Of a stretch of 64,000 nt of DNA, positions 10,471 to 46,099 are shown piece by piece (the first letter of the stretch is position 1; each line of letters opens with the position of its first letter). Under the pieces are notes generated by a model. It had not been told where the DNA came from. It ran no database searches and saw only the letters and a list, made by a program, of their open reading frames with translations. This stretch comes from Paracoccaceae bacterium (GTDB taxonomy: Bacteria; Pseudomonadota; Alphaproteobacteria; Rhodobacterales; Rhodobacteraceae): positions 1-64,000 of the forward strand of contig CANNIA010000012.1 in NCBI GenBank assembly GCA_947504705.1. Reading direction: 5' to 3'. Made by a program: the position numbers and the translations under genes.

Positions 10471-11256
10471 ATGAAACTGACTGCTGCCGCCCTTGCGGGC
10501 CTTGTTACGCTTGCCGCCCCTGCCTTTGCGCAGGACCTTCCTGACCTCGCGGGTCGGGAAGTCGTGATCGTGACCGAAAACGCCTATCCGCCGCTGCAGT
10601 TCCTGGACAAGGACGGGGCCGCCGTGGGTTGGGAATATGACGCGGTGGCAGAGATTGCCAAGCGGCTGAACATCGTGGTCAAGTATGAGAACACCAGTTG
10701 GGACGCGATGATCCCGGCTGTGTCGGAAGGCCAGTATGACCTGGGCATGACCGGGATCACCATCAAGGATGAACGCAAGGAGCAGGTCGATTTCTCCGAT
10801 CCCTACATGCGGTCGGAAATGCTGATGATCGTGCGCGGCGATGAGGCGCGGTTCACCGATGCGGCCAGCTTTGCGGCGATCCCTGAGCTTTTGGTTTCGG
10901 CCCAGCCCGGCACTTCGCCCTTCTATGCGGCGATCTACAACATCCTTGACGGCAACGAAGAAAACCCTCGCGTGATCAAGTTCGAAACCTTTGGGGCCGG
11001 GCTTGAGGCGCTGAAGGCGGGTGACGTGGACCTGACGCTGTCGGATTCGACCGCTGCCAATGGCTATGTGAATGCCTCGAACGGCGGGCTGAAGATCATT
11101 GGCGAACCGCTGGCGTCGGAAGACTTTGGGTTCATCTTCCCGAAAGGGTCGGATCTTGTTGCCCCGATCAATGCGGCGATTGCCAGCATGAAGGCGGATG
11201 GCACGATGGATGCGCTGAACCAGAAGTGGTTCGTCGACTACAAGATGGGCGAATGA
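10471..11256 (+). CDS. Amino-acid ABC transporter periplasmic substrate-binding protein
   Basis: A 261-residue exported protein of the family-3 solute-binding type with signal peptide ending APAFAQ, then two alpha/beta lobes containing [22 protein letters not shown] and [12 protein letters not shown], features of polar amino-acid binders. It is followed by a matching permease and an aconitase X gene, so a cyclic amino acid such as a hydroxyproline isomer is a reasonable ligand (inference). An intergenic mRNA hairpin separates it from the permease and may raise its relative expression. Confidence 0.9.
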
Positions 11257-11265
11257 CCTGAAGCG

Positions 11266-11289
11266 CCCCGGGAGGTTTACCTCTCGGGG
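11266..11289 (+). promoter_or_regulatory. Intergenic mRNA hairpin between binding-protein and permease genes
   Basis: CCCCGGGAGG (11266-11275) pairs with CCTCTCGGGG (11280-11289), allowing one G-U pair, around a four-base TTTA loop. It lies just after the binding-protein stop and just before the permease ribosome site. Such stems commonly stabilise the upstream message or reduce permease translation so the periplasmic subunit is made in excess. No U-run follows, so it is not a standard terminator. Confidence 0.6.
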
Positions 11290-11296
11290 ATTGCCC

Positions 11297-12085
11297 ATGG
11301 CACCCAATTCCCAACCGGATAAAGACTTTCCCTGGTGGCTGGTGATCCTTGCGGTCACCGGCGCTTGGCTTTTGTACGAAATCTGGTCGGATGAGGTCTA
11401 CAAGGCCTCTCTCAAGACCCTGTCCAAGGGGCTGTGGGTCACGCTGGGGGTCGCGGTGGTGGCCTATATCGGGGCCTGCGCCATGGGGCTGGGGCTGGCC
11501 TTGATGGGGATGTCGCGGCACATCGTCCTGCGGCAGGCGGCGCGGCTTTACGTCGAGGTGATGCGGGGGGTGCCGATCATCGTCCTCCTCCTTTATGTCG
11601 CCTTCGTGCTGGCCCCGGCGGTGGTGCATGGGGTGAACTGGCTGGCGGGGAACGAGCTGATCCGCACCCGCGACGTGCCCTTGCTGTGGCGGGCGGTCTT
11701 TGCGCTGATGCTGGCCTATTCCGCCTTTCTGGCCGAGATTTTCCGCGCGGGCCTGCAGGCCGTGGACAAGGGCCAGATCGAGGCGGCGCAGTCCTTGGGC
11801 CTGAACGGCTGGCAGCGGTTTCGCCATGTGCGCTTTCCACAAGCGTTCCGGCTGATCCTGCCGCCCTTGGGCAATGATTTTGTCGCCATGGTGAAAGACA
11901 GCAGCCTTGTCGCGGTGCTGGGCGTTTCGGATGTGGCGCAGCTGGCCAAGGTCACGGCGGCGGGGAACTTTCGCTATTTCGAGACCTATAACGTCGCGGC
12001 GTTCCTGTATCTGTTCATGACGATCAGCCTGTCGCTGATCCTGCGCCGGTTCGAGACCCGGATGCGATCACGCGGCAAGAATTGA
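11297..12085 (+). CDS. Amino-acid ABC transporter permease (HisM/GlnP type)
   Basis: Inner-membrane subunit of a polar amino-acid ABC importer. The 262-residue protein has five to six membrane segments and the ABC-contact EAA loop (EAAQSLGLNGWQRFRHVRFPQ trimmed, near residues 158-177). The start is taken at ATG 11297, six bases after GGGGA; a TTG two codons upstream is less likely. It would work with the binding protein at 10471, but no ATPase gene lies in the operon, so a shared or distant ATPase must supply energy. Confidence 0.9.
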   Translation: MAPNSQPDKDFPWWLVILAVTGAWLLYEIWSDEVYKASLKTLSKGLWVTLGVAVVAYIGACAMGLGLALMGMSRHIVLRQAARLYVEVMRGVPIIVLLLYVAFVLAPAVVHGVNWLAGNELIRTRDVPLLWRAVFALMLAYSAFLAEIFRAGLQAVDKGQIEAAQSLGLNGWQRFRHVRFPQAFRLILPPLGNDFVAMVKDSSLVAVLGVSDVAQLAKVTAAGNFRYFETYNVAAFLYLFMTISLSLILRRFETRMRSRGKN

Positions 12086-12107
12086 GCTTTGCAGGAGCGA
12101 TGAGACC

Positions 12108-13817
12108 GTGATCCCCCACTCTCTTTCCAGCACAGAAGGTCGCCAGATCGTAGCGGGTTCGGCCCAAGGCGATATTCTGGCCTTTGCCGAAGGGATCAGC
12201 TTCTGGGGCGGGATTGATCCTGATAGCGGGCGGATCATCGACATCCACCACCCCAACCATGGCCAGTCGGTCGCGGGGAAGGTCTTGCTGATGCCAACCT
12301 CACGCGGGTCGTGCAGTGGCAGCGGGGTGTTGTTGCAGCTGGCGCTGGACGGGAATGCCCCGGCGGCGCTGGTGTTCTGTGAGCGGGAAGAAATCCTGAC
12401 GCTGGGGGCGTTGGTCGCAAGCCGGATTTTCGGGCGTCCAATGCCAGTCGTTCAGTTGGGACGCGAAGCCTACGCGCGGCTTGCCGTGGCCTCGCATGCG
12501 ACCTTGGCCGAAGGCGGGATCAGTGCCGAGGGGGTGTCAATCCCCGTGGTGGCGGCACGGATTTCCGATTTGGAGCTGACGGAACGGGACCGTTTGGTCC
12601 TAGGTGGGGCGGAAGGGCCTGCGGCTCAGATGGCGATCGAGATTATCTGTGTGATGACCGCCTCGGACGGGACGCGCGCGCTGACGGATGTCACCCGCGG
12701 GCATATCGACGGCTGCATCCTGGCCCATTCCGCCAATCTGATCTTTGCCGAGAAACTGGCCGATCTGGGCGCGAAAGTGGTGGTCCCAACCACGATTAAT
12801 GCGATTTCGGTGGACCATGCGAATTGGCGGTCGCAGGGGATTGCTTCCGACTTCGGCCTGCGGGCCAGTCGGCTGGCGGATGCCTATGTCCGGATGGGCG
12901 CGAAGCCGACCTTCACCTGCGCGCCCTATCTGCTGGAGGATGCCCCGAAAGCGGGTGAGGTCATAGGCTGGTCGGAATCGAATGCGGTGATTTTTGCCAA
13001 CACCGTCCTTGGCGCGCGGACGCCAAAGCACCCGGACTATCTTGACCTGTTCATTGCAATGACCGGGCGGGCACCGGCCAATGGTGTCTATACCGACGCG
13101 GGCCGGATGGCGCGGCAGGTGATCCGGGTTGATGCGCCTGCGGGGGTGGATGATCTTTTCTGGCCGCTGCTGGGATGGCTGGTCGGACGGCATTCGCCGG
13201 ACCGGATTCCTCTCGTCACCGGGCTGGAAGGGGTTGCGGCCACGCGGGACGACCTGAAGGCGATGTGCGCGGCCTTTGGCACCACCTCGGGCGCGCCGAT
13301 GCTGCATGTCGCGGGGCATACGCAGGAAGCCGCGGCCTGCCGCGATCTGGAAGCGCCGGTGGTTACCCTTGGGCCGGAGGATTTTCGCGCGGCCTGGGAG
13401 GAGCTTAATCAGGGTGAGACCAAGGTCGATCTGGTTGCCGTTGGCAGCCCGCATTCCTCCTTGGCCGAGCTGCGGCGCATGGCCGATCTGTTCGAAGGAA
13501 GGCGCTGTGGCCCGGCAACCCAGATGATCGTGACCCTTGGCCGCGACGTGCTGCGCGCGGCAGGGACCGAGGGGGTGCTCGCACGGTTGCAGGCGGCAGG
13601 AGTGCGGTTGATCCCTGATTTGTGCTGGTGTTCGGTGACCGAACCGATCTTCCCAGCCCATGCCAAGGGCCTGCTGACCAATTCGGGCAAGTACGCCCAC
13701 TATGCGCACGGTCTTTCGGGCCGCCATGCGCGGCTGGCCAGTCTGAGCGATTGCGTCGAGGTGGCGGTCAGTGGGCAGGCCTCGGCTTTGCCACCGGAGT
13801 GGCTGGCGTGGGGCTGA
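12108..13817 (+). CDS. Fused aconitase X (probable cis-3-hydroxy-L-proline dehydratase)
   Basis: A 569-residue single-chain AcnX: an N-terminal swivel domain (about residues 1-135, with TSRGSCSGSGVLL) joined to the large catalytic domain (about 145-565, with ITASDGT-like and conserved cysteines such as LCWCSVTEP). Characterised bacterial AcnX enzymes dehydrate cis-3-hydroxy-L-proline to delta1-pyrroline-2-carboxylate, and the adjacent amino-acid transporter genes agree with this. The usual pyrroline-2-carboxylate reductase is absent here. The start is GTG 12108 with GGAG nine bases upstream; this gene is 22 bases after the permease, so probably one operon. Confidence 0.86.
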   Translation: MIPHSLSSTEGRQIVAGSAQGDILAFAEGISFWGGIDPDSGRIIDIHHPNHGQSVAGKVLLMPTSRGSCSGSGVLLQLALDGNAPAALVFCEREEILTLGALVASRIFGRPMPVVQLGREAYARLAVASHATLAEGGISAEGVSIPVVAARISDLELTERDRLVLGGAEGPAAQMAIEIICVMTASDGTRALTDVTRGHIDGCILAHSANLIFAEKLADLGAKVVVPTTINAISVDHANWRSQGIASDFGLRASRLADAYVRMGAKPTFTCAPYLLEDAPKAGEVIGWSESNAVIFANTVLGARTPKHPDYLDLFIAMTGRAPANGVYTDAGRMARQVIRVDAPAGVDDLFWPLLGWLVGRHSPDRIPLVTGLEGVAATRDDLKAMCAAFGTTSGAPMLHVAGHTQEAAACRDLEAPVVTLGPEDFRAAWEELNQGETKVDLVAVGSPHSSLAELRRMADLFEGRRCGPATQMIVTLGRDVLRAAGTEGVLARLQAAGVRLIPDLCWCSVTEPIFPAHAKGLLTNSGKYAHYAHGLSGRHARLASLSDCVEVAVSGQASALPPEWLAWG

Positions 13818-14069: not shown

Positions 14070-14118
14070 GATGGGGGCGCTTCGCCCCCCACGTCGATGG
14101 CTTCTTTGGAAACCATCT

Positions 14119-14152
14119 CCTTCCCCCAGAGGATATTTGGAGAACAGAAAGC
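14119..14152. repeat. Dispersed repeat R1, copy 2
   Basis: CCCCCAGAGGATATTTGG followed by AGAACAGAAAGC matches the R1 core at 2788. It lies about 57 bases upstream of the M3 peptidase start. Confidence 0.55.
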
Positions 14153-14209
14153 GCTGGGGTGGACCTTTGGTCGTTGGGTGCCTAGCTTTCCGGGCAAAGG
14201 AGATCCGCG

Positions 14210-16219
14210 ATGAATGTGCTTTTGGAAAACTGGGATACCGCGTTCGGGCTGCCGCCCTTTGCGCGCATCAAGGATGAGGATTTCGCGCCAGCCTTTGATG
14301 AGGCGCTGGCGCGGGCCAAAGCTGCAGTCGCGGCGATTGCCGGGGGACCGGGCGTTGGCTTTGCCGAGGTAATCGAGGCGCTGGAGCTGGCTGATGGCGA
14401 TTTGGATCGGGTTGCGGGGGTTTTTTACAACCTTGCCGGAGCCGACAGCACCGAAGCGCGCGAGGCTTTGATGCGGGAGCTGGCGCCGAAGATGAGCGCG
14501 CATTCCAGCGAAGTGACCAATAACAAGGCGCTTTGGGCCAAGATCGAAACCTTGTGGCAGGGGCGGGAAGGGTTGGGGCTGACGGCGGAACAGGCGCGGG
14601 TGCTGGAGCTTTACCGGCAGATGTTCGTGCGGTCCGGTGCGGCGCTGGAGGGGGCGGAGGCCGAGCGGCTGACAGCGGTAAAGTCGCGGCTGGCTGTGCT
14701 GGGCACGAGCTTTGGCCAAAATCTTTTGGCGGATGAGCGGGGCTGGTTCATAGACCTCTCAGTTGCCGATCTGGTGGCGCTGCCGGAGTTCGTGCAGGCC
14801 TCGGCCAAGGCGGCGGGCGAGGAGCGGGGGTCGGGGCCGGTGGTCACGCTGAACCGTTCGCTTGTCGTGCCGGTTTTGCAGTTTTCGCCGAACCGGGCCT
14901 TGCGGGAAAAGGCCTATGAGGCCTGGGTGGCGCGCGGGGCCAATGGGGGAGAGACGGACAACCGGGGAATTGCGGCGGAGATTCTGGCCTTGCGGGGGGA
15001 ACGGGCGAAGCTTTTGGGCTATGCCGATTTCGTGTCCTACAAGCTTGAACCGGAGATGGCGAAGACTGGCGCGGCGGTGCGCGATCTTCTGATGCGGGTC
15101 TGGGAACCAGCGCGGGCGAAGGCGCTTGAGGATGCGGGCGTGCTGGAAGCGATGCTGAAGGCGGACGGGTTCCCGGGGCCTTTGGAGGCTTGGGACTGGC
15201 GCTATTACAGCGAAAAGCGGCGCAAGGCGGAGCATGATCTGGATGAGGCGGCGTTGAAGCCCTATCTGGGCTTGGAGGCGATGCTGGGGGCGATGTTTGA
15301 ATGCTCGACCCGGCTTTTCGGGCTCGAGTTCCGCAAGATCGAGGGGCCGTTCTATCACCCGGATGTGCGGGGCTGGGAGGTGACGCGCAAGGGTGCGCAT
15401 GTGGCGGTGTTCCTGGGCGATTACTTCGCGCGGGGGTCCAAGCGGTCGGGTGCCTGGTGTTCGGCGATGCGGTCACAGCGCAAGCTTGGGGGCGATGTAC
15501 GGCCCGTGGTCGTGAACGTCTGCAACTTCGCCAAGGGGAACCCCTGCCTTTTGTCTTATGACGATGCGCGGACGTTGTTCCATGAATTCGGCCATGCCCT
15601 GCACCAGATGCTGTCGGATGTGACCTATGGCTTCATCTCGGGCACTTCGGTCGCGCGGGACTTTGTCGAACTGCCGAGCCAGCTTTACGAACATTGGCTG
15701 GAGGTGCCTTCGGTGCTGGAAGCCCATGCGCGACATTACCAGACGGGCGAGCCGATGCCTGCCGACATGCTGAGGCGGCTTTTGAATGCGGCGACCTATG
15801 ATCAGGGCTTTGCCACGGTGGAATTCGTCTCCAGCGCGATGGTCGATCTGGAGTTCCACACCGGCACGCCTCCGGCGGACCCGATGCAGCGGCAGGCGGA
15901 AGTGCTTGAAGGTCTGGGGATGCCGCGCGCGATAAGGATGCGACACGCGACCCCGCATTTCGCGCATGTCTTCAGTGGCGACGGATATTCGGCGGGCTAT
16001 TACAGCTATATGTGGTCGGAAGTGATGGACGCCGATGCTTTCGCGGCCTTCGAGGAGACAGGCGATCCCTTTGACCCTGTGACGGCGGCAAAGCTGGAAA
16101 AGTTCATCCTGTCGGCGGGTGGGTCCGAGGATGCCGAAGCGCTGTACCTGAAATTCCGGGGCAAGATGCCGGGGGTCGAGGCTTTGCTGAAGGGCCGGGG
16201 GCTTCTGGACGCAGTGTAA
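14210..16219 (+). CDS. M3-family oligopeptidase / peptidyl-dipeptidase
   Basis: Cytosolic zinc metallopeptidase of 669 residues that cleaves short peptides. The zinc site HEFGH is at about residues 457-461 and the third ligand glutamate in DFVELPSQ is about 25 residues later; the substrate-pocket segment FSGDGYSAGYYSYMWSE is also present. Full length for the M3A group that includes oligopeptidase A (PrlC) and peptidyl-dipeptidase Dcp; I cannot decide between these. AGGAG precedes the ATG. MgtC-like gene follows after ten bases. Confidence 0.92.
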   Translation: MNVLLENWDTAFGLPPFARIKDEDFAPAFDEALARAKAAVAAIAGGPGVGFAEVIEALELADGDLDRVAGVFYNLAGADSTEAREALMRELAPKMSAHSSEVTNNKALWAKIETLWQGREGLGLTAEQARVLELYRQMFVRSGAALEGAEAERLTAVKSRLAVLGTSFGQNLLADERGWFIDLSVADLVALPEFVQASAKAAGEERGSGPVVTLNRSLVVPVLQFSPNRALREKAYEAWVARGANGGETDNRGIAAEILALRGERAKLLGYADFVSYKLEPEMAKTGAAVRDLLMRVWEPARAKALEDAGVLEAMLKADGFPGPLEAWDWRYYSEKRRKAEHDLDEAALKPYLGLEAMLGAMFECSTRLFGLEFRKIEGPFYHPDVRGWEVTRKGAHVAVFLGDYFARGSKRSGAWCSAMRSQRKLGGDVRPVVVNVCNFAKGNPCLLSYDDARTLFHEFGHALHQMLSDVTYGFISGTSVARDFVELPSQLYEHWLEVPSVLEAHARHYQTGEPMPADMLRRLLNAATYDQGFATVEFVSSAMVDLEFHTGTPPADPMQRQAEVLEGLGMPRAIRMRHATPHFAHVFSGDGYSAGYYSYMWSEVMDADAFAAFEETGDPFDPVTAAKLEKFILSAGGSEDAEALYLKFRGKMPGVEALLKGRGLLDAV

Positions 16220-16699: not shown

Positions 16700-17662
16700 T
16701 CAGCCGCGCAGCGCACCCGGCGGCTGGCCGAACCTTGTCCGGAACGCGCGGGACAGGGTTGAGGGGCTGGAAAACCCCGTCCGAAGCGCGACTTCAGCCA
16801 GGGGATGGCGAGTGTCGGTCAGCATTCGGCGTGCCACCTGCAGGCGCAGTCCCAGCGCATGAGCGGCGGGGGTGGTGCCAAGCGCCTCGCGGAACAGGGT
16901 TTCAAGGCGACGGGGGGAAAGGCCAATGGCGCGCGCGATCTCGGCTGCAGTTTCGGGGGTGTCGATCTGCGCCTCCATCCGGGCAAGGGCGCTGGCCACG
17001 CGGGGGTCAAGCGCGGGGTCGGGTTCGACTGCAGCGGTCTGCGGTTCGGCCCCGGGGCGGGCTTGGGTCAGAAAGCTCATCGCAACTTGGCGCGCGAGAC
17101 CGGCCCCATGGCGGGCGCGGATCAGGTGCAGCATGAAGTCGGCGGCGGGGGCGGCACCGGAGATCGTCACGCGGTTGCGGTCGATGACAAAGCGGTCGGG
17201 GACGACATCGACGTGAGGGTGGGCGGCGGCGAGGTCCTCAAGGTCCTCCCAATGCACCGTCGCACGGTGACCGTCCAGAAGGCCCGCGCGGGCAAGGACC
17301 CAGGGGGCGGCGTCGATGCCACCGACCAGTTGAAAACGGGGCGCGATGCGGCGGAGGTCGCGGATCAGGGGTCGCGTTGCCACCTCGGCCAGCCGGTAGC
17401 CTGCGACGACGATCAGGGCATCGGCCCCTGCGGCATGGGACAGGGGGCCGGTTGAAGGGAGCGAAATCCCGCAGGTCAGGGGAACCGGCGCGCCATCAGG
17501 GGAGACCACGCGCCAGCGGTAGGCCTCATGCCCCAGTTGCCGGTTGGCGTTGCGCAAGGGGTCCAATGCCGAAGCGACCTCAAGGATCGAGGCTTGTGGC
17601 AGGACCAGAAGGGCGATGGTCAGGGGCTGGTCGCTGGGTTGGAAGATGGCATTTTCCGTCAT
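16700..17662 (-). CDS. GlxA-family AraC-type regulator, probable carnitine operon regulator (CdhR-like)
   Basis: A 320-residue transcription factor with an N-terminal DJ-1/PfpI-like ligand domain (about residues 15-190) and a C-terminal AraC/XylS double helix-turn-helix (about 222-318, with ATLSRAFRTRFG-type second helix region STLSRAFRTRFGQPPGALRG). It is divergent from the carnitine operon. In Pseudomonas, CdhR of this same family activates carnitine dehydrogenase genes, so the same role is likely. Start ATG 17662 (MTENAIF) begins the homologous region; the open frame upstream runs antisense to the neighbouring gene and is ignored. Confidence 0.9.
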   Translation of the reverse strand: MTENAIFQPSDQPLTIALLVLPQASILEVASALDPLRNANRQLGHEAYRWRVVSPDGAPVPLTCGISLPSTGPLSHAAGADALIVVAGYRLAEVATRPLIRDLRRIAPRFQLVGGIDAAPWVLARAGLLDGHRATVHWEDLEDLAAAHPHVDVVPDRFVIDRNRVTISGAAPAADFMLHLIRARHGAGLARQVAMSFLTQARPGAEPQTAAVEPDPALDPRVASALARMEAQIDTPETAAEIARAIGLSPRRLETLFREALGTTPAAHALGLRLQVARRMLTDTRHPLAEVALRTGFSSPSTLSRAFRTRFGQPPGALRG

Positions 17663-17746
17663 CAGGATTTCGTAAACTGCCAAGACTGATTTGGGAAGCC
17701 CGCTATGGTGGGCCAGATGGCGCAATGCCGAACCGGAGGGGACCCA

Positions 17747-18661
17747 ATGCCGATGAACATGAACAAGGAAGTTTTCATCACTTGTGCCGTCACCGGTTCG
17801 GGCGGAACGCAGGACCGTTCGCCGCATGTGCCCCGGTCGCCGAAGCAGATTGCCGACAGCGCGATTGCGGCGGCCAAGGCGGGGGCGGCGGTGGTGCATT
17901 GCCATGTGCGTGACCCCGAAACCGGGAAACCCAGCCGCCGGCTGGACTATTACCGCGAGGTGACCGAGCGCATCCGTGACAGCGATACCGATGTCGTGTT
18001 GAACCTGACCGCCGGGATGGGCGGCGACATGCTGTTCGACGGCACCGAATCCATGGACCGGATGGCCGACCATTCCGACATGTGCGGTGCGGAGGAACGC
18101 GTGGCCCATATCGTCGAATGCCGCCCGGAAATCTGCACGCTGGACTGCGGCACGATGAACTTCAACGAGGCCGATTACGTCATGGTCAACACCCCCGGCA
18201 TGCTGCGCGACATGGCGCGGCGGATGACGGCGGCAGGCGTTCGGATCGAGATCGAGGCGTTTGATACCGGCCATCTGTGGCTGGCCAAGCAGCTGGCCTC
18301 CGAAGGCGTGATCCCCGAGCCGGTGCTGGTGCAGCTGTGCATGGGCGTTCCGTGGGGCGCGCCGGACGACCTCAACACCTTCATGGCGATGGTGAACAAC
18401 GTCCCCGCAGGCTGGCATTTCAGCGCCTTTGGTCTGGGCCGGAACGAAATGGCCTATGTCGCCGCCGCCACGCTGGCCGGTGGCAACGTCCGCGTCGGTC
18501 TGGAAGACAACCTCTGGCTGGAAAAGGGCGTGCTAGCCACCAACGCCCAACTGGTGGAACGTGCCGCGACCCTGATCGAGACCATGGGCGCGCGGGTGAT
18601 CACACCGGCCGAAGTGCGGGCGAAGCTGAAGCTGGAGAAGCGGGCACCGGTGGCGAAGTGA
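17747..18661 (+). CDS. Beta-keto acid cleavage enzyme (BKACE), probable 3-dehydrocarnitine cleavage
   Basis: A zinc-dependent TIM-barrel enzyme of the 3-keto-5-aminohexanoate cleavage family. With carnitine dehydrogenase next door the expected reaction is 3-dehydrocarnitine plus acetyl-CoA to betainyl-CoA plus acetoacetate. The 304-residue protein shows the metal-binding VVHCHVRDP motif with His51 and His53. Three ATGs lie within 13 bases; 17747 is preferred because GGAGGGG is five bases upstream. It is the first gene of the operon and lies opposite the GlxA-type regulator, with an 84-base shared promoter gap. Confidence 0.9.
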   Translation: MPMNMNKEVFITCAVTGSGGTQDRSPHVPRSPKQIADSAIAAAKAGAAVVHCHVRDPETGKPSRRLDYYREVTERIRDSDTDVVLNLTAGMGGDMLFDGTESMDRMADHSDMCGAEERVAHIVECRPEICTLDCGTMNFNEADYVMVNTPGMLRDMARRMTAAGVRIEIEAFDTGHLWLAKQLASEGVIPEPVLVQLCMGVPWGAPDDLNTFMAMVNNVPAGWHFSAFGLGRNEMAYVAAATLAGGNVRVGLEDNLWLEKGVLATNAQLVERAATLIETMGARVITPAEVRAKLKLEKRAPVAK

Positions 18662-18670
18662 TCGCTCAGG

Positions 18671-18970
18671 ATGCTCTTTGACGTGGCCATGTATGGCGGA
18701 ATGACGATTTGCTTCAGCTTGGGAGTTCTCATGGGGCTGAAAGACAGAATTGGAATGCTGTTCCTGGTTACAATTGGGCTTTTTGCCCTCTTGATGCTGG
18801 CGATGACGCTCAAGGGGCGAAACACGGAATACGGTGCAGGCGACACGATGACCGCAATCACATTCGTGTCGCTGCTAATTTGGCTTCCCGCCTACTGGGC
18901 GGGGTTTCTTATCAGCGCGGTAGCTCGATGGTTGTCGGCAGCGCTTCGCGACCAAAGGACTCGGAAATGA
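18671..18970 (+). CDS. Small membrane protein embedded in the carnitine operon, unrecognised
   Basis: A 99-residue protein with three hydrophobic segments (about residues 7-24, 28-47 and 60-88) and a basic tail ending RDQRTRK. Its TGA overlaps the ATG of carnitine dehydrogenase (ATGA at 18967-18970), so translation is coupled to the enzyme. The sequence is visibly AT-richer than both neighbours. I recognise no family. It might be a transport or anchoring subunit for the pathway or a selfish insertion that preserved operon translation. No strong ribosome site is seen upstream. Confidence 0.6.
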   Translation: MLFDVAMYGGMTICFSLGVLMGLKDRIGMLFLVTIGLFALLMLAMTLKGRNTEYGAGDTMTAITFVSLLIWLPAYWAGFLISAVARWLSAALRDQRTRK

Positions 18971-20451
18971 CGAAGAACAGAAAAGCAGCAATCATCGGTG
19001 GCGGGGTTATCGGCGGCGGGTGGGCCGCTCGGTTCCTTCTGAACGGCTGGGATGTGGCCGTGTTCGACCCCGATCCCGAAGCGCCCCGCAAGGTGGGCGA
19101 GGTGATCGGCAATGCCCGCAAGTCGCTGCCCGCGCTTTCGGATATTCCAATGGTGGCCGAGGGCAAGCTGACCTTCGCGCAGACCATCACCGAGGCCGTG
19201 CAAGGCGCACATTACATTCAGGAGTCGGTCAGCGAGCGGCTGGACCTGAAGCATCGGGTCTATGCCCAGATCCAGCAAGCGGCGGAACTTGGCACGCCCA
19301 TCGGGTCGTCAACCAGCGGGTTCAAGCCCAGCGAGTTGCAGGAAAACGCGGCGAACCCCAGCGTGATCTTTGTGGCCCACCCGTTCAACCCGGTCTATCT
19401 GCTGCCCTTGGCCGAAGTGGTGCCCTCGGCCAAGTCCGATGCATCGGTGATCGAAAATGCCAAGGACATCCTGCGCGAAATCGGGATGTTCCCCTTGCAC
19501 GTCCGCAAGGAAATCGACGCCCATATCGCCGACCGCTTCCTTGAGGCCGTCTGGCGTGAGGCGCTGTGGCTGGTCAAGGACGGCGTTGCCACCACCGAGG
19601 AAATCGACGAGGCGATCCGCATGGGCTTTGGCCTGCGTTGGGGGCAGATGGGCCTCTTTGAGACCTATCGCGTTGCCGGTGGTGAAGCCGGGATGAAGCA
19701 TTTCATGGCGCAGTTCGGGCCCTGCCTGACCTGGCCCTGGACCAAGCTGATGGATGTGCCCGAGTTCAACGACGAGCTTGTCGATCTGATCGCAGGCCAG
19801 TCCGATGCACAATCGGGCCACCATACCATCCGCGAGCTGGAGCGTATTCGCGACGGCAACCTGATCGGGTTCCTGCGCAGCCTGAAGGAACGCAACTGGG
19901 GCGCGGGCAAGGTTTTGCGCGAACATGACGAACGCCGTGCAGTCGCCCTGCACGCCGAACTGGCCAAGGGCATCGACACCGGGGCCAAGGCCGCGCCGTT
20001 GGTCATGTATCACGGTCAGGTCCTGCCGGGCTGGATCGACTATAACGGCCACATGACGGAAAGCCGGTATCTCTTCGTCTGTTCGGAAGCCTGCGACAAC
20101 TTCCTGCGGATGATCGGCGCGGGGATGGATTACGTTGCGGCGGGGCATTCCTTCTATACCGCCGAAACCCATATCCGGCACCTCGGTGAGGCCAGGCTGG
20201 GCGATGCGGTCCGGGGCGAGATGCAGATCCTGACGGCGGATGAAAAGCGGTTCCGCAGCTTTGTGCGGATCATGATCGGTGACACCTGCGTGGCTACGGT
20301 CGAACAGCTTTGCCTGCATGTCGACATGAAGGCTGGCAAGACCATGCCAGCGTCGCCAGAGGTCTGGGCCAAGCTGGAGGGCGTCGCCAAGGCCCATGCC
20401 GGGCTGCCGATGCCGGAAGGTGCAGGCCGCGCCGTGGGGCAGAAGAAGTGA
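18967..20451 (+). CDS. L-carnitine 3-dehydrogenase fused to betainyl-CoA thioesterase
   Basis: A 494-residue fusion. Residues 1-315 form a 3-hydroxyacyl-CoA dehydrogenase-like NAD enzyme (IIGGGVIGGGWAARFL dinucleotide loop; SSTSGF and HPFNPVYLLPLAE substrate motifs) that oxidises L-carnitine to 3-dehydrocarnitine. Residues about 340-480 are a hotdog thioesterase with WIDYNGHM. Such fusions are known in rhizobia, where the thioesterase hydrolyses the betainyl-CoA made by the cleavage enzyme. The ATG overlaps the preceding stop, and its own stop overlaps the next start. Confidence 0.92.
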   Translation: MTKNRKAAIIGGGVIGGGWAARFLLNGWDVAVFDPDPEAPRKVGEVIGNARKSLPALSDIPMVAEGKLTFAQTITEAVQGAHYIQESVSERLDLKHRVYAQIQQAAELGTPIGSSTSGFKPSELQENAANPSVIFVAHPFNPVYLLPLAEVVPSAKSDASVIENAKDILREIGMFPLHVRKEIDAHIADRFLEAVWREALWLVKDGVATTEEIDEAIRMGFGLRWGQMGLFETYRVAGGEAGMKHFMAQFGPCLTWPWTKLMDVPEFNDELVDLIAGQSDAQSGHHTIRELERIRDGNLIGFLRSLKERNWGAGKVLREHDERRAVALHAELAKGIDTGAKAAPLVMYHGQVLPGWIDYNGHMTESRYLFVCSEACDNFLRMIGAGMDYVAAGHSFYTAETHIRHLGEARLGDAVRGEMQILTADEKRFRSFVRIMIGDTCVATVEQLCLHVDMKAGKTMPASPEVWAKLEGVAKAHAGLPMPEGAGRAVGQKK

Positions 20452-21200
20452 AGCGCTGCCTGATCACGGCGGGGGCGAACGGGATCGGGCTGGTCATGGC
20501 CCGGGCCTTCGCCGATGCAGGCTACCTGGTCTGGGTCACCGATGTGGACCACGGCGCAGTGGCCGCTTTGCCCGCCGGGATCAGGGGCACGGTCTGCGAT
20601 GCCTCGAACGAGGCGGCGATGGAACTGCTGTTTGCCGAGGTCGCCAAAGACTGGGGCGGACTGGATGTCCTCTGCGCCAATGCCGGGATCAAGGGCCCGA
20701 CAGCGGCGATCGAGGATATGCCGCTGGAAGGCTGGCACCAGTGCATCGGCGTGAACCTTGACGGGGCGATGCTTGCGGCAAAATACGGCGCGCGGCTGAT
20801 GAAGCCTGCAGGGCGCGGCTGCATGATCTTTACCTCGTCCACCGCCGGGATCTATGGCGTCCCCTACCGCGCGCCCTATGCGGCGGCGAAATGGGCGGTC
20901 ATCGGGCTGATGAAGACCGTGGCGATGGAACTTGGCCCCTTCGGCATCCGCGCCAATGCGATCTGCCCCGGTTCGGTGAACGGCCCCCGCATCGACCGCG
21001 TGATCGAGGCGGAAGCCGCCGCCAAGGGCACAACCCCGGACGTGATCCGGCAAGGCTATGCCTCTGGCACCGCGCTGAAGCGGCTGACCGATCCTGAAGA
21101 CGTGGCGCATATGGCGCTTTTCCTCGCCTCAGACGGCGCACGCATGGTCTCGGGCCAAGCGATGACCGTCGACGGCTTTACCATCAATCCCGATCCGTGA
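20448..21200 (+). CDS. Short-chain dehydrogenase/reductase of the carnitine operon
   Basis: A 250-residue classical SDR with TAGANGIG cofactor loop, NAG motif in CANAGIKG, and catalytic Ser-Tyr-Lys in STAGIYGVPYRAPYAAAK. It starts at GTG 20448, which overlaps the dehydrogenase stop by four bases. Its step is unclear: reduction of acetoacetate to 3-hydroxybutyrate, oxidation of a carnitine isomer, or a side reaction are all compatible. Operon position argues for a role in quaternary amine breakdown. Confidence 0.86.
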   Translation: MKRCLITAGANGIGLVMARAFADAGYLVWVTDVDHGAVAALPAGIRGTVCDASNEAAMELLFAEVAKDWGGLDVLCANAGIKGPTAAIEDMPLEGWHQCIGVNLDGAMLAAKYGARLMKPAGRGCMIFTSSTAGIYGVPYRAPYAAAKWAVIGLMKTVAMELGPFGIRANAICPGSVNGPRIDRVIEAEAAAKGTTPDVIRQGYASGTALKRLTDPEDVAHMALFLASDGARMVSGQAMTVDGFTINPDP

Positions 21201-21207
21201 GGGCATA

Positions 21208-22371
21208 ATGGATTTCGGTCTGAACGAAGAACAGCAGATGATCGTCGACACGACGCGGGCCTTTGTCGAGGCGGAGCTTTATCCGCACGAGCTTGAGGTC
21301 GAACGCACCGGCCATCTGCCGCTGGAACTGATCAAAGAGATCCAGAAAAAGGCCATCGCTGCAGGACTTTATGCCGCCAACATGCCGGCGGAAGTCGGTG
21401 GCGCTGGCCTCGATACCCTGTCTTGGCTTCTCTACGAAAAGGAACTCGGCCGCGCAAATTATGCGCTGCACTGGACGACTGTAGCACGGCCGTCGAACAT
21501 CCTTTTGGCCGGGAATGTCGAACAGCGCGAGCAGTATCTGATGCCCTGTATTCGCGGCGAGACATGGGATTGCCTTGCGATGACCGAACCGGGCGCGGGG
21601 TCGGACCTGCGGGGAATGAAGGCCAGCGCGCGGCAGGATGGCGATGACTGGATCCTGAACGGCACCAAGCATTTCATTTCCCATGCCGACCTTGCAGGCT
21701 TTGCGATCTGCTTCATGGCCACGGGCGAAGAACAGACCCCGCGCGGCCCGAAAAAGCTGATCACCGCCTTCTTTGTCGACAAAGGCACGCCGGGTTTTGC
21801 CGTGCGCGACGGCTATCGCAACGTCTCGCACCGGGGCTATACCAACGCGGTCCTCGAATTCGACGACTGCCGCATCAACAAGCGCCAGATTTTGGGCGAG
21901 GTTCACAAGGGCTTTGAAGTCGCCAACTCCTGGCTGGGTGCGACGCGCCTGCAAGTCGCCTCGACCTGCCTTGGCCGCGCCGAACGCGCGCTTGGCCATG
22001 CGATCCAGTATTCTGCCGAGCGCAAGCAGTTTGGCCAGCAGATCAGCAAGTTTCAGGGGATCAGCTTCAAGCTGGCCGACATGGCGATGGAGCTGAAGGC
22101 GGCGGAACTGCTGACCCGCGAGGCCGCGTGGAAATACGACCAAGGCACGGTGACCGAAGCCGACATGTCGATGGCCAAGCTGAAGGCGACCGAAGTGCTG
22201 GCGATGGTGGCGGATGAGGCGATCCAGATCCACGGCGGCATGGGGCTGATGGACGAGCTGCCGCTGGAACGCATCTGGCGCGACAGCCGGGTGGAACGGA
22301 TCTGGGAGGGCACCTCCGAAATCCAGCGCCACATCATCAGCCGCGAACTTCTGCGCGCGGTCGGTGGCTGA
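21208..22371 (+). CDS. Acyl-CoA dehydrogenase, probable gamma-butyrobetainyl-CoA dehydrogenase / CaiA-like
   Basis: FAD enzyme of 387 residues with the signatures AMTEPGAGSDL and QIHGGMG and a catalytic glutamate in RIWEGTSEIQ near the C-terminus. Beside a CaiD-type hydratase and a CoA ligase, the likely reaction is gamma-butyrobetainyl-CoA to crotonobetainyl-CoA. In E. coli CaiA works in the opposite, reducing direction; which way this one runs depends on its electron acceptor, which is not encoded here. Starts seven bases after the SDR stop. Confidence 0.9.
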   Translation: MDFGLNEEQQMIVDTTRAFVEAELYPHELEVERTGHLPLELIKEIQKKAIAAGLYAANMPAEVGGAGLDTLSWLLYEKELGRANYALHWTTVARPSNILLAGNVEQREQYLMPCIRGETWDCLAMTEPGAGSDLRGMKASARQDGDDWILNGTKHFISHADLAGFAICFMATGEEQTPRGPKKLITAFFVDKGTPGFAVRDGYRNVSHRGYTNAVLEFDDCRINKRQILGEVHKGFEVANSWLGATRLQVASTCLGRAERALGHAIQYSAERKQFGQQISKFQGISFKLADMAMELKAAELLTREAAWKYDQGTVTEADMSMAKLKATEVLAMVADEAIQIHGGMGLMDELPLERIWRDSRVERIWEGTSEIQRHIISRELLRAVGG

Positions 22372-22377
22372 CCGACC

Positions 22378-22788
22378 ATGGACAACAATTTGTACGCCTT
22401 CCTGCAATCGAGCGCGGGTGCCCTCACGGTTCGGGGGCTAAGTCTGCTGCTTGCGCTTGCGGCGGTTGGAATTGCGATCTTCGCGCTACGATCATACATT
22501 CGTGGTCAAAAAGACGAAGGCACGGAACTGGGTGCAGCACCTTGGGGGCTGCTTCTCGGCACCTTTAGAGACACGTTCACCATAACCGTCCTCTACTCTG
22601 CCTACTACGTTCTTGATCTTTCGTCGTCTTTGAAAATTTTCCTTCCCGATAGTGCAAGTGACGCCGCTATGTCGACGCGGATCGGAATGACGCTGGTCCA
22701 TATAATCCTTGAACTTGCCGTCCTCTTCATCGCCGCCCGTCGCATCGCTTCGATTGGACGGTGGCTCAGCGCGCGAGCCAAACAATGA
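22378..22788 (+). CDS. Second small membrane protein embedded in the carnitine operon, unrecognised
   Basis: A 136-residue protein with three hydrophobic segments (about residues 15-37, 52-75 and 105-122) and a basic C-terminus RIASIGRWLSARAKQ. Its stop overlaps the start of the CoA ligase gene (ATGA at 22785-22788), so it is coupled to it. The C-terminal RWLSA resembles the RWLSAALRDQ tail of the other embedded protein at 18671, but the two are otherwise not clearly related. Base composition is again lower in GC than the enzymes. No family is recognised. Confidence 0.6.
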   Translation: MDNNLYAFLQSSAGALTVRGLSLLLALAAVGIAIFALRSYIRGQKDEGTELGAAPWGLLLGTFRDTFTITVLYSAYYVLDLSSSLKIFLPDSASDAAMSTRIGMTLVHIILELAVLFIAARRIASIGRWLSARAKQ

Positions 22789-24773
22789 CCCACGTACTTG
22801 ACCGTCTGCTTCGCCCCAAGACCATCGCCGTTCTGGGGGCTGGCTGGGCCCGGAACGTGATCGAGCAATGCCAGAAGATGGGCTTCAAGGGCCCCGTCTG
22901 GCCCGTGCATCCGACCAAGACCGAGATCGGGGGCCTCAAGGCCTATCCCTCGCTTGCCGACCTGCCCGAACCGCCCGACGCGACCTTCATTGGCGTGAAC
23001 CGCATGGCTACGGTTGAGGTGGTCGAGGAGTTGCGCCGGATGGGTGCGGGGGGCGCGATCTGTTTCGCCTCTGGCTGGACCGAAGCGGGCGAGCCGGGGC
23101 TGCAGGCCAAGCTGGTCGCAGCAGCGGGCGAGATGCCGATCCTCGGGCCGAACTGCTACGGCGTGATCAACAATTTGGACGGGGCACTTCTCTGGCCCGA
23201 CCAGCACGGTGGCGTGCCGGTGCAAAAGGGCGTGGCCTTGGTCAGCCAGTCATCGAACATCGTCATCAACATGGGGATGCAGCAGCGCGGGCTGCCGGTC
23301 GCCTATGTCGCCTGTCTGGGCAATGCTGCCGTTGTGGGGCTGGCGGAACTGACTGGGGCGCTTCTGGATGATCCACGCGTGACAGCGGTCGGGCTTTACA
23401 TCGAAGGCATCGACGATGCCCCGGCCTTTGCCGCCCTGGCCGAGAAGGCCCGCGCGATGGGCAAGGGGGTGGTGGCGATCAAGTCGGGCAAGACCGAACT
23501 TTCGCGGACCGCTGCCGCGTCACACACCGCCTCGCTGGCCGGTGGCGGGGCCGCCTCCAGCGCCTTTCTGCGGCAGATCGGGGTGGCGGAGGTCAATACG
23601 CCTTCGGAACTGATCGAGACGCTGAAAATCTTCCACATGCACGGGCCGCAGATTGGCACGCGCATCTGTTCGCTGTCGTGCTCAGGTGGCGAAGCGGGGT
23701 TGGTCGCCGACTTGGCAGCGCCCTACGGGATCGACTTCCCTCCCGTGCCGCAAGTCACGCATGAACGGCTGTTTGCCGTGCTGGGCGAGATCCCCACAAT
23801 CTCCAACCCATTGGATTATCACACCTTCATCTGGGGCGACGGGCCGAAGACCACCGAGGTCTTCAGCGCAATGCTGGATGCCTATGACGCGGGCATCTAC
23901 ATCATCGACAGCCCGCGTCCGGATCGGTGCGACCCGTCCGGCTATCAACCCGCCTTCGACGCGATCACCACCGCGCAGAAGGTGACGGGGAAAATCGCTT
24001 TCCCGGTCGCCTCCATGGCCGAGAACCTTGGCGAGGCCCGGGTTCAGGCGATGATGGAAGACGGCATCTGCGCGCTGCTGGGGCTGGAGACTGCGCTCGC
24101 GGCAATCAAGGCGGCGCAGACCCCGGCAGGGGTTGTGGGCTGGCGACCAGTGGCGGCGCTCCCCCCGCGCGAGACGCGGATGCTGACGGAGGCTGAGGGC
24201 AAGGCGCTTTTGGCCAAGGCGGGCGTTGCGGTGCCGAAGGCGGTGACTGGGCCGACGCTGGCGTCCTTGGATGTGGCGGGCCTGACGCCACCCTTCGCGC
24301 TGAAGGGGCTGGGCTTTGCCCACAAGACCGAAGCCGGGGCGGTGCGTCTGGGGCTTTCGACGCTGGACGGTCAGGCCGAAATGAAGGGCGCGACCGGCTA
24401 TCTGGTTGAAGAGATGGTGACCGGGACTGTCGGGGAAATCCTGCTCGGCCTGCGGCGTGACCCGGTCTATGGCGTGACGCTGACGCTTGGCATGGGCGGA
24501 GTCACCGCCGAAGTTCTGGCCGATACGGTGACGCTGGTCCTGCCCTGTACGCAAGCGCAGGTGCTGGAGGCTGCACAGCGTCTGCGGTTGTGGCCGTTGT
24601 TGGACGGTTACCGCGGCAGGCCGAAGGCTGACATGGCAGCGGTGGCCGAAATCGCGGTCAGGCTGGGTCAGTTGATGCTGGCCGACGAAAGCCTTGAGGA
24701 AATCGAAATCAACCCCGTCCTCGTGCGCCAACAGGGTGCCGTAGCGGTGGATGCATTGATCAGGAGAGTGTGA
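22785..24773 (+). CDS. NDP-forming acyl-CoA ligase (acetate-CoA ligase family), probable betaine-CoA ligase
   Basis: A 662-residue enzyme with CoA-binding domain (1-130), two ligase-CoA domains (about 140-430) and a C-terminal ATP-grasp domain (about 465-655). The active-site histidine lies in AASHTASLAG, matching the SHTG(S/A)LAG family motif. It would activate gamma-butyrobetaine, crotonobetaine or carnitine with CoA, the task done in E. coli by the unrelated AMP-forming CaiC and CoA transferase CaiB. Starts at ATG 22785 overlapping the small membrane gene; stop overlaps the caiD-like start. Confidence 0.9.
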   Translation: MTHVLDRLLRPKTIAVLGAGWARNVIEQCQKMGFKGPVWPVHPTKTEIGGLKAYPSLADLPEPPDATFIGVNRMATVEVVEELRRMGAGGAICFASGWTEAGEPGLQAKLVAAAGEMPILGPNCYGVINNLDGALLWPDQHGGVPVQKGVALVSQSSNIVINMGMQQRGLPVAYVACLGNAAVVGLAELTGALLDDPRVTAVGLYIEGIDDAPAFAALAEKARAMGKGVVAIKSGKTELSRTAAASHTASLAGGGAASSAFLRQIGVAEVNTPSELIETLKIFHMHGPQIGTRICSLSCSGGEAGLVADLAAPYGIDFPPVPQVTHERLFAVLGEIPTISNPLDYHTFIWGDGPKTTEVFSAMLDAYDAGIYIIDSPRPDRCDPSGYQPAFDAITTAQKVTGKIAFPVASMAENLGEARVQAMMEDGICALLGLETALAAIKAAQTPAGVVGWRPVAALPPRETRMLTEAEGKALLAKAGVAVPKAVTGPTLASLDVAGLTPPFALKGLGFAHKTEAGAVRLGLSTLDGQAEMKGATGYLVEEMVTGTVGEILLGLRRDPVYGVTLTLGMGGVTAEVLADTVTLVLPCTQAQVLEAAQRLRLWPLLDGYRGRPKADMAAVAEIAVRLGQLMLADESLEEIEINPVLVRQQGAVAVDALIRRV

Positions 24774-25576
24774 TGCCCGCGATGGAAATGCGAACCGAAG
24801 GCCCGATCAAGACCCGCCGCGAAGGCGCGATCTTGGAGGTGACGCTGGACGCCCCCAAGGCCAATGCGATCAGCCTGAAGACCAGCCGGGTGATGGGGCT
24901 GACCTTCCGCGACTTCCGCGATGATGACAGCCTTCGGGTCTGCATCATCCGCGCGGCGGGTGAGAAATTCTTCTGCCCCGGCTGGGACCTGAAGGCCGCC
25001 GCTGAGGGCGATGCGGTCGATGGCGACTATGGCGTCGGCGGGTTTGCAGGCCTGCAGGAACTCCCGAACCTCAACAAGCCGGTCATCGCCGCCGTGCAGG
25101 GCATCTGCTGCGGCGGCGGGTTGGAGTTTGCTTTGTCGGCGGACCTGATCCTGTGCTCCACCAACGCGACCTTTGCCCTGCCCGAAATCCGCTCGGGCAC
25201 GGTGGCCGATGCTGCGTCAATCAAGCTTCCCAAACGTATCCCCTATCACGTCGCGATGGACCTGCTGCTGACCGGCCGGTGGTTCGACGCGGAAGAGGCG
25301 CATCGCTGGGGCATCGTCAAGGAAATCTGCGCGCCAGAGGATCTGTTGGCCAAGGCTTGGGACCTTGCCCGCCTGCTGGAATCCGGCCCGCCGCTGGTCT
25401 ATGCCGCGATCAAGGAAGTGGTGCGCGAGGCTGAAAACATGCGCTTCCAAGACGCGCTGAACAAGGTCTCGAAGCGGCAGATGCCGACGGTGGACAAGCT
25501 TTACTCCAGCGAGGATCAGCTGGAGGGCGCGAAGGCCTTTGCCGAAAAGCGCGATCCGGTCTGGAAGGGGCGGTAG
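24773..25576 (+). CDS. caiD: Carnitinyl-CoA dehydratase / crotonobetainyl-CoA hydratase
   Basis: Crotonase-fold enzyme of 267 residues interconverting crotonobetainyl-CoA and L-carnitinyl-CoA. Similarity to E. coli CaiD is strong at recognisable points: GWDLKAAAEG, the oxyanion-hole GGGLEFALSAD, FALPEIRSGTV with the catalytic-type glutamate, and the C-terminal FAEKRDPVWKGR. The ATG at 24773 shares bases with the ligase TGA and has AGGAG upstream, better than the GTG one codon earlier. It is the last gene of the operon. Confidence 0.92.
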   Translation: MPAMEMRTEGPIKTRREGAILEVTLDAPKANAISLKTSRVMGLTFRDFRDDDSLRVCIIRAAGEKFFCPGWDLKAAAEGDAVDGDYGVGGFAGLQELPNLNKPVIAAVQGICCGGGLEFALSADLILCSTNATFALPEIRSGTVADAASIKLPKRIPYHVAMDLLLTGRWFDAEEAHRWGIVKEICAPEDLLAKAWDLARLLESGPPLVYAAIKEVVREAENMRFQDALNKVSKRQMPTVDKLYSSEDQLEGAKAFAEKRDPVWKGR

Positions 25577-26734: not shown

Positions 26735-28348
26735 ATGGACGAGACCGATTATATCATCGTGGGATCTGGCAGCGCGGGCTGTGTTCTGGCCGACCGGCTT
26801 TCGGCCAGCGGCAAGTACAGGGTGACGGTGCTTGAGGCTGGCGGAACCGACCGGCGGTTTTATGTTCAACTGCCGCTTGGCTATGGCAAGCTGTTCTATG
26901 ACCCCGCCGTCAACTGGATGTATCAGACCGAGCCCGATCCGGGGCTGAATGGAAACCGCGATCACTGGCCGCGCGGTAAGATCCTTGGCGGGTCCTCAAG
27001 CATCAACGCGATGGTCTATATCCGAGGGCATCGGCAGGATTACGAAGACTGGGGCCGCGACAATCCCGGCTGGGGCTGGGAAGATTGCCTGCAGGCCTAC
27101 AAGGCGATGGAAGACACCGAAGCCGGGGCCGACGACTATCGCGGCAAGGGCGGGCCTTTGTTCGTGTCAGCCAATACCTCGGGCCTGCATCCGCTGGTGA
27201 ACACCTATCTGGCCGCCTGCAATGAGGCGGGGCTTGCGACGACCCCGGACTTCAACGGCGCTTCGCAGGAGGGTGCCGGCATCTATCAGATGACGATCAA
27301 GAGCGCGCGGCGAAACTCGGCGGCCCGGGCCTTCCTGCGGCCAGCGATGAAGCGGGCCAATCTGCGGGTCGAGACGCGGGCACTGGTCACGCGGGTTCTG
27401 ATCGAAGCTGGCCGCGCGGTTGGTGTCGAATACCGGCAGGGTGGCGTGACCAAGGTCCTGCGCGCCAAGGGAGAGGTGATTCTTGCGGGCGGCTCGATCA
27501 ACTCACCGCAGCTTTTGCAGCTGTCGGGGATCGGGCCGGGGGCTGATTTGCAGGGGCTGGGGATTCCGGTACTGCAGGACAACGGCAATGTCGGCCAGAA
27601 CCTGAGCGACCATCAGGGCGTCAACTACACCTGGTCGATGACCGTGCCGACCTACAACGACGAGCTGCGCCCATGGTGGGGCAAGCTGCGCGCCGGGATG
27701 CAGTATTTTCTGGGCGGCAACGGGCCGCTGGCCAAGTCGATCAACCATGCGGGCGGGTTTTTCCGCACCCGGCCCGGGCTGGATCGGCCCAATATGCAGC
27801 TGTATTTCCAGGCTTTTTCGACCCTGATCCCGCGCAATGGCGAACGGCCCTTGCTGACACCAGATCCCTGGTCAGGCCTCTCAATTGGCCTTTCGAACTG
27901 CCGCCCGACCAGCAAGGGAAACATCCGGCTGAAGACGGCCAACCCGGAGGATCATCCGATCATCACGCCGAATGCCTACTCAACCGACCATGACGTGCAA
28001 GAGATGCTGGAAGCAGTGAAATTCCTGCGCCAGATCGCCGCACAACCCGCCATGGCGCGGCTGGTCAAGGAAGAACTGCGGCCGGGGCCGGGTGTGGTGA
28101 CGGACGCGGCGCTGATTGACGATTTCCGGTCACGCTCGGGCACGGTTTATCACCCAAGCTGCACGTGCCGGATGGGACCGGATGCGGCGTCCTCGGTCGT
28201 TGATGCGCGGTTGCGGGTGCATGGCGTGGCGGGGCTGCGGGTCGTCGATGCCTCGGCTTTCCCAAGCATCATCGCGGGCAACACCAATGCGCCGGCCATG
28301 CTGATGGGCTGGAAAGGCGCCGAGGTGATCCTGGCCGACGCGCGTTAA
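26735..28348 (+). CDS. GMC-family flavin oxidoreductase (choline dehydrogenase-like)
   Basis: FAD enzyme of 537 residues that oxidises an alcohol group. The Rossmann loop [13 protein letters not shown] is near residues 10-22, the GMC signatures [18 protein letters not shown] and [16 protein letters not shown] follow, and the active-site region is HPSCTCRMG (about 473) with the conserved GNTNAP (about 516). ATG 26735 is the homologous start. Choline oxidation toward glycine betaine would fit the preceding operon, but other alcohols are equally possible since no betB or betT is adjacent. Confidence 0.88.
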
Positions 28349-45800: not shown

Positions 45801-45965
45801 CTGACCTTTGCCCAACCCCCTGCCCAACCGGGGCCATACCTGTCAGATCATGCGACCTGCCGCTGGTTTCAAGCCCCGTCCCGGTGAAACCTAGACCCAT
45901 CATCCCGGCCCGCCAAGGGGAAAGCCCCCTCCCCTTGCGTCTGCGCTGCGTTGGCCTATGCTTGG

Positions 45966-46051: not shown

Positions 46052-46099
46052 ATGGGTTTCTCCATCCCCGACCAATCCGTCGCATCATGGAGAGACCTT

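Follow-up and report, generated by a model that had tools for sequence, protein, structure and literature searches.

A Rhodobacteraceae operon predicted to convert gamma-butyrobetaine and carnitine to glycine betaine, with a candidate gene for D-carnitine oxidation

A 64,000-nucleotide stretch of contig CANNIA010000012.1 (the window) from the assembly of a Paracoccaceae bacterium (GCA_947504705.1; 3.72 Mb in 87 contigs) was analyzed around a compact locus in which a regulator gene on the - strand (16700–17662, 16700 being the end of the stop codon) diverges from eight tightly packed + strand genes (17747–25576). From family assignments, intact catalytic residues and synteny with Sinorhizobium, these genes were read, with a probability of about 0.85, as a catabolic operon for trimethylammonium acids that would convert gamma-butyrobetaine and carnitine to glycine betaine, both its substrates and its induction being predicted. 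The original prediction, made from the letters of the DNA, had described a GlxA-type regulator divergent from eight overlapping or closely spaced genes, and every gene that it named was found at the place and in the order given.

In the proposed pathway, a fused NDP-forming ligase would make gamma-butyrobetainyl-CoA, an acyl-CoA dehydrogenase (ACAD) would oxidize this to crotonobetainyl-CoA, and a CaiD-like hydratase would convert that to L-carnitinyl-CoA. L-Carnitine would be freed by a thioesterase, perhaps the one fused to carnitine 3-dehydrogenase (CDH), and CDH would oxidize it to 3-dehydrocarnitine; BKACE would then convert 3-dehydrocarnitine and acetyl-CoA to betainyl-CoA and acetoacetate, and the thioesterase would release glycine betaine from betainyl-CoA. 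A short-chain dehydrogenase/reductase (SDR) may supply a second input, oxidizing D-(S)-carnitine to 3-dehydrocarnitine.

Pathway enzymes and gene order

For the carnitine-to-betaine half, BKACE scored 335 bits against PF05853 (Pfam gathering score, 24.8) and belongs to that family, and its HxH pair, which we take to be metal-binding, was kept in 67/67 aligned sequences. CDH scored 766 bits against NF005716, above the equivalog cut-off of 592, and kept His138 and Glu150, presumably catalytic, in 70/70 aligned sequences. At the thresholds used, CDH was present in 217/295 sampled genomes of the family, its own genome included, so that many Rhodobacteraceae probably have the route described in S. 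meliloti. For the S. meliloti CDH, a second function is cited, the conversion of betainyl-CoA to betaine (available text of PMC12482172, citing Bazire 2019). In R. pomeroyi, according to the available text of PMC12478193, CdhABC are raised on methylated amines including carnitine, and carnitine supports growth as the sole carbon source.

For the CoA-ester half, the ligase carries CoA-binding, ligase and ATP-grasp domains together with a phospho-His, as an NDP-forming acyl-CoA ligase does, and at the thresholds used it was found in 182/295 genomes of the family, its own included. The nearest solved chain by sequence was DddX (7cm9; E = 3.4e-66), an ATP-dependent dimethylsulfoniopropionate (DMSP) lyase that shares the fused NDP-forming architecture. 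In an alignment of 44 sequences, the window protein included, His247 (DddX His292), which we take to be the phosphorylated histidine, and Trp350 (DddX Trp391) were kept in 44/44, and position 387 (DddX Phe435) was aromatic in all 44 (Tyr, Phe or Trp). Unlike DddX, none of the 44 has Glu at the position of its catalytic Glu432 and two have Asp, in the loop that is the least certain part of the alignment (in the window protein, HMMER places Gln opposite Glu432 and MAFFT places Pro). DddX Glu432 is reported as the probable lyase base in the available text of PMC8163506, and a role for the ligase as a DMSP lyase was rejected because this Glu is missing in 44/44. With the onium-binding aromatic residues and the phospho-His kept and the lyase Glu missing, the ligase should act on a trimethylammonium acid and halt at the CoA ester. 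The contrast with DddX suggests how a single fold can support either onium-acid ligase or lyase activity.

In the other two enzymes of this half, the position that we take to be the ACAD base was Glu in 25/45 sequences and Asp in 20/45, and the two Glu residues of the hydratase, presumably catalytic as in CaiD, were both present in 44/45, with a gap in the remaining sequence. The best family for the hydratase was crotonobetainyl-CoA hydratase CaiD (NF002936). A search of the bacterium's own genome found no TauD-family dioxygenase, and a hydroxylase route from butyrobetaine was therefore not seen.

Gene order was compared in 34 mapped relative loci, which were selected from ligase matches, mostly the best ones. 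BKACE, CDH, ACAD, ligase and CaiD occurred together in 29/34 of these, more than chance would give, and the SDR occurred in 10/34. The core gene order was repeated in S. meliloti Ak57, Rhizobium acidisoli and Sulfitobacter W027. At the corresponding place, the R. pomeroyi DSS-3 megaplasmid carries the regulator, ACAD, ligase, a DJ-1 protein and CaiD. Phaeobacter sp. G2 carries the regulator, BKACE, a small open reading frame (ORF), CDH and SDR. The carnitine-to-betaine module and the butyrobetaine-to-carnitine module therefore exist both separately and joined. Within the window, four gene junctions read from the sequence are 4 bp overlaps, provided that the hydratase starts at GTG 24770, and these overlaps would fit a single transcript.

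The short-chain dehydrogenase and competing readings of the operon

The original prediction listed the SDR correctly and left its role blank; comparative data tie it to carnitine dehydrogenase and not to the CoA-ester steps. At the thresholds used, the SDR was present in 102/295 genomes of the family, its own included, and 78 of the 101 others had a match of at least 57% identity. Of these 78 close matches, 62 adjoin CDH on the same strand, 61 of them immediately following it with a median of 6.5 bp separating the aligned ends; in 5 the two genes are on different contigs, and for 11 no call was possible, CDH not being among the matches listed. The 23 weaker matches comprised 10 adjacent to CDH, 3 on another contig, 1 far away and 9 that could not be judged. 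Named loci were the best 80 of 566 confirmed, with DNA examined up to 6 kb on each side, and the best-matching named relatives were Rhodobacteraceae and Rhodobacterales. CDH lies directly upstream of the SDR in 72/80, and 33/80 carry CDH and BKACE but nothing that reaches 45% identity to ACAD, ligase or CaiD within the examined DNA; a role for the SDR in the CoA-ester half was rejected on the basis of these 33 loci. Distant homologues in Caballeronia sp. NK8 and Sagittula stellata adjoin other pairs of HAD-type dehydrogenase and BKACE; two dehydrogenases of opposite hand supplying a single BKACE may be a design that recurs.

Ser131, Tyr144, Lys148 and Asp32 of the SDR were kept in 52/52 sequences and Asn103 in 48/52, from which an active, NAD-dependent enzyme is expected. 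Arg141 and Arg181 were invariant (52/52). A structural model built from the alignment reached a predicted local distance difference test (pLDDT) score of 88.7, the single-sequence model being poor (pLDDT 40.4), and it matched quinuclidinone reductase and aminoacetone dehydrogenase among many SDRs, a common fold that in the model reveals no substrate. The 3-quinuclidinone reductase of Agrobacterium (3ak4/3wds) is an SDR of 35–36% identity whose substrate is a ketone adjoining CH2-N; it differs in having Leu and Met where the window SDR has its two invariant arginines.

The stereochemistry of 3-hydroxybutyrate-type SDRs suggests D-carnitine as the substrate. Enzymes of this type take the (R)-3-hydroxybutyrate geometry, and since CH2-N+ has priority over CH2-COO-, this arrangement in carnitine is designated (S), which is D-carnitine; HAD-type CDH acts on the other enantiomer, L-carnitine. 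On the grounds of context, residues and stereochemistry, the SDR gene and those of its CDH-linked relatives are tentatively proposed, at somewhat less than even odds, to encode D-(S)-carnitine 3-dehydrogenase, so that the operon would funnel both carnitine enantiomers and butyrobetaine into 3-dehydrocarnitine. It would then contain two dehydrogenases of unrelated fold and opposite stereospecificity.

A less probable alternative is that the SDR is an (R)-3-hydroxybutyrate dehydrogenase handling the acetoacetate that BKACE releases and is unrelated to D-carnitine. Acetoacetate is indeed the BKACE product, (R)-3-hydroxybutyrate dehydrogenases stood high in the structural comparison, and the nearest solved relative, the Burkholderia multivorans SDR 5unl (47% identity; Ser/Tyr/Lys, Arg141, Arg181 and Trp149 in common), is titled D-beta-hydroxybutyrate dehydrogenase. 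That title is the depositors', however, and resembles a structural-genomics label. Against TIGR01963, the family of (R)-3-hydroxybutyrate dehydrogenase, the SDR scored 175 bits (cut-off, 307), and the residues that we take to bind substrate in that enzyme are not kept: with the 52 SDRs aligned to 3v2h, Gln94 is replaced by Ala, Lys or Gly, His144 by Ala, Ser or Gly, Lys152 by Arg and Gln196 by Val or Met (Val in 51/52). A housekeeping acetoacetate enzyme would, moreover, need no such close placement after CDH. An ordinary 3-hydroxybutyrate dehydrogenase was set aside on the cut-off and these residues and retained as a rival.

Besides 5unl and its two arginines, several occurrences of the gene speak against D-carnitine as the SDR substrate. 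CDH is missing from eight of the 80 named loci, of which one lies at the edge of a contig; in the three of these that were scanned, the neighbors are unrelated (L159) or a peptide-type binding protein lies beside the SDR (L170, L191). In Ensifer, a more distant SDR homologue lies beside a lone GlxA regulator without CDH, the similarly distant homologues of Mesorhizobium and Shinella have neither CDH nor BKACE at hand, and the SDR is missing from the S. meliloti and Rhizobium clusters examined.

If the D-carnitine assignment of the SDR is right, its activity is that of (S)-carnitine 3-dehydrogenase, presumably EC 1.1.1.254. A D-carnitine dehydrogenase is named as an activity in the available text of a review (PMC2131755), and no gene for it was seen in the parts of the literature that the search covered. 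The SDR is a directly testable candidate for that gene, and a D-carnitine-oxidizing enzyme would be of practical use because carnitine manufacture yields D-carnitine as a waste product (PMC2131755, available text).

A number of results also weigh against the pathway as a whole. The ACAD scored 185 bits against the CaiA model (NF002885; equivalog cut-off, 540), the hydratase 303 bits against CaiD (cut-off, 500), and the regulator 182 bits against GbdR (NF052371; cut-off, 480). Four CaiB-type CoA-transferases, none on the operon contig, lie elsewhere in the genome and could activate the substrates instead, no BCCT transporter gene was found in the genome, and the operon is without any transporter gene.

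It is improbable that the CoA-ester genes serve substrates other than gamma-butyrobetaine, either racemizing D-carnitine via crotonobetainyl-CoA or acting on other onium acids. The top score of the ACAD was against acryloyl-CoA reductase (290 bits of the 640 needed), DddX belongs to the ligase family, and E. coli CaiD participates in carnitine racemase activity (PMC2131755, available text); yet an acyl-CoA dehydrogenase is superfluous for racemization, the catalytic Glu of DddX is missing, and the gene order matches that of S. meliloti, where butyrobetaine is a substrate of the BcoAB ligase (PMC8364193, available text). Equally improbable is an operon chiefly for carnitine and glycine betaine as osmoprotectants and not as food: glycine betaine is an osmoprotectant, but CDH and BKACE of the same operon destroy carnitine, the ten MttB-family genes of the genome may permit betaine demethylation, and R. 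pomeroyi grows on carnitine, as described above.

Regulator, small membrane proteins, repeat and surroundings

The features of the locus are collected in Table 1.

Table 1. Features of the predicted butyrobetaine and carnitine operon (window positions)
Feature	Position	Strand	Evidence or remark
GlxA/GbdR-type regulator, DJ-1/PfpI domain and AraC-type helix-turn-helix	16700–17662	-	PF01965, PF12833 above cut-off
Conserved promoter/operator-like motif	17668–17709	+	Divergent intergenic region; predicted function
BKACE	17747–18661	+	PF05853, 335 bits; HxH pair 67/67
Small membrane protein tm1	18671 or 18689 (alternative starts) to 18970	+	Two hydrophobic segments
Carnitine 3-dehydrogenase fused to 4HBT_2 thioesterase (CDH)	18967–20451	+	NF005716, 766 bits
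SDR, predicted NAD-dependent dehydrogenase, tentatively proposed D-carnitine 3-dehydrogenase	20448–21200	+	Conserved residues, CDH linkage
Acyl-CoA dehydrogenase (ACAD), predicted butyrobetainyl-CoA dehydrogenase	21208–22371	+	Pfam ACAD domains; conserved position
Small membrane protein tm2	22378–22788	+	Two hydrophobic segments; ACAD–ligase gap, site of structured repeat in relatives
Fused NDP-forming acyl-CoA ligase, predicted gamma-butyrobetaine:CoA ligase (BcoAB-like)	22785–24773	+	PF13380, PF13607, PF13549 above cut-off
CaiD-like crotonobetainyl-CoA hydratase, predicted	GTG 24770 or ATG 24773 to 25576	+	Best NCBIfam NF002936

GbdR was the best NCBIfam family of the regulator, which has the same two-domain layout. 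The divergent intergenic region holds a motif, TTTCGTAAA..GCNAAG..GGNAAGC..TATGGT, that is conserved across 40 distinct sequences, the window's included. A scan of the window gave one match (0.00 expected in shuffles), which, the motif being derived in part from the window site itself, shows only that the motif has no second copy in the window. The regulator may sense the substrate and act at this motif.

No Pfam or NCBIfam family was found for tm2, no PHROG match for tm1 or tm2, and no significant relative of either in the relative loci L035–L073; tm2 had 2 weak relatives among 99 other genomes. At the tm1 position, an ORF of at least 60 amino acids is present in 82 of 130 relatives, and because 36 of these 82 hold a hydrophobic segment, a membrane protein may often occur there despite unlike sequences. 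At the tm2 position, such an ORF was present in 51 of 78 relatives and none had a hydrophobic segment. The sequences of tm1 and tm2 are not conserved.

In 46 relative loci, the ACAD–ligase gap holds a structured, strongly covarying element of 128 positions (for example, L040:9037–9164 (+) and L119:8031–8158 (+)), which is not at this gap in the window, where tm2 lies instead. One further regular-expression match (L083) was excluded as lying inside a gene. The 45 distinct copies, those of L067 and L068 being antisense to the operon, were aligned and gave 28 pairs, 22 of them with changes on both sides, and 96.1% of cells paired; 0/500 shuffles were as high on any of five measures, and slid versions of the alignment were 43–51% paired. 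A second alignment of 37 further model matches, mostly at other genes and fitted to the model, was 96.4% paired, with 21 pairs changed on both sides (6/500 shuffles reach 21) and 0/500 shuffles as high on the remaining measures. No Rfam family matched at its gathering score, the sub-threshold scores being 23.1 bits for naRNA4 (59.5 needed) and 17 for PhotoRC-I (45 needed).

The repeat model matched in 92/120 Rhodobacteraceae genomes, beside varied genes, and in 26 of the 37 copies examined the downstream gene, called by a simple ORF rule, is on the opposite strand. In three copies (L215, L219, L226) that gene is an acyl-CoA dehydrogenase, and these may be the same ACAD–ligase gap read in reverse. 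A butyrobetaine riboswitch was rejected on the number of genomes, the varied neighbors and the opposite-strand genes, and the element is read as a dispersed REP-like repeat, not a switch of the operon. For repeats of this kind in Rhodobacter or Roseobacter, a literature search turned up nothing relevant among the matches listed. In the window, a weak match to the repeat model (15.8 bits, E = 0.0057) lies at 14116–14275 (-), at the start of an M3-type peptidase gene.

Elsewhere in the window, genes at 10471–13817 (+) for an amino-acid-type ABC binding protein, a permease and a cis-3-hydroxy-L-proline dehydratase (846 bits; cut-off, 700) suggest hydroxyproline use. Just downstream of the operon, at 26738–28345 (+), lies a GMC oxidoreductase that comes near the cut-offs for choline dehydrogenase without reaching them (558 of 605 and 476 of 732 bits), and a thiamine pyrophosphate (TPP) riboswitch (67 bits) is at 45964–46062 (+). 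The genome holds ten MttB-superfamily methyltransferase genes on several contigs, which suggests broad quaternary amine use.

Comparison with known systems

The E. coli cai operon encodes CaiABCD. Both systems have a CaiD-like hydratase and an acyl-CoA dehydrogenase for betaine CoA esters (PMC2131755, available text), which in the window are predicted substrates, but the window proteins fall below the CaiA and CaiD equivalog cut-offs and the CoA-ester genes of the window are joined to carnitine-to-betaine genes. The expectation that an NDP-forming ligase stands where E. coli uses CaiB/CaiC was upheld by its domains, its catalytic residues and the synteny with Sinorhizobium.

The P. aeruginosa cdh operon resembles the window in having a divergent AraC/GATase-type regulator, CdhR, which binds direct repeats, beside carnitine-to-betaine genes (PMC5806209). 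It differs in the CdhR half-site GGTCGC, which is unlike the window motif, and in that the available text of that paper mentions no butyrobetaine-CoA genes for it.

The closest system is that of S. meliloti. In strain Ak57, a divergent GlxA-type regulator is followed by BKACE, CDH, ACAD, NDP-forming ligase and CaiD in the same order as in the window, with identities of 40% (regulator), 73% (BKACE), 52% (CDH), 65% (ACAD), 50/44% (ligase) and 78% (CaiD); the record is labeled pSymB though it is 3.7 Mb long, and the ligase, unannotated there, aligned in two pieces. The window thus holds an operon of the S. meliloti type, with ligase, ACAD, hydratase, CDH and BKACE behind a divergent GlxA-type regulator, and differs in its extra SDR, tm1 and tm2. 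According to Bazire 2019, S. meliloti reportedly converts butyrobetaine to glycine betaine with five enzymes for seven steps, the pathway is said to be widely conserved in Alphaproteobacteria, and the cells are said to make butyrobetaine themselves, a point in favor of the osmoprotectant alternative. BcoAB, ATP and CoA were used to make butyrobetainyl-CoA (PMC8364193, available text), and from the content of the cluster BcoAB would be its NDP-forming gene. A Rhizobium-like strain oxidizes butyrobetaine to carnitine in steps akin to those of fatty acid degradation (PMC2131755, available text). The idea that the operon joins both halves of the pathway was thus supported by families, residues and synteny, although with the S. 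meliloti precedent it is not new. The butyrobetaine-to-betaine route is known in outline, and the SDR is the newly proposed part.

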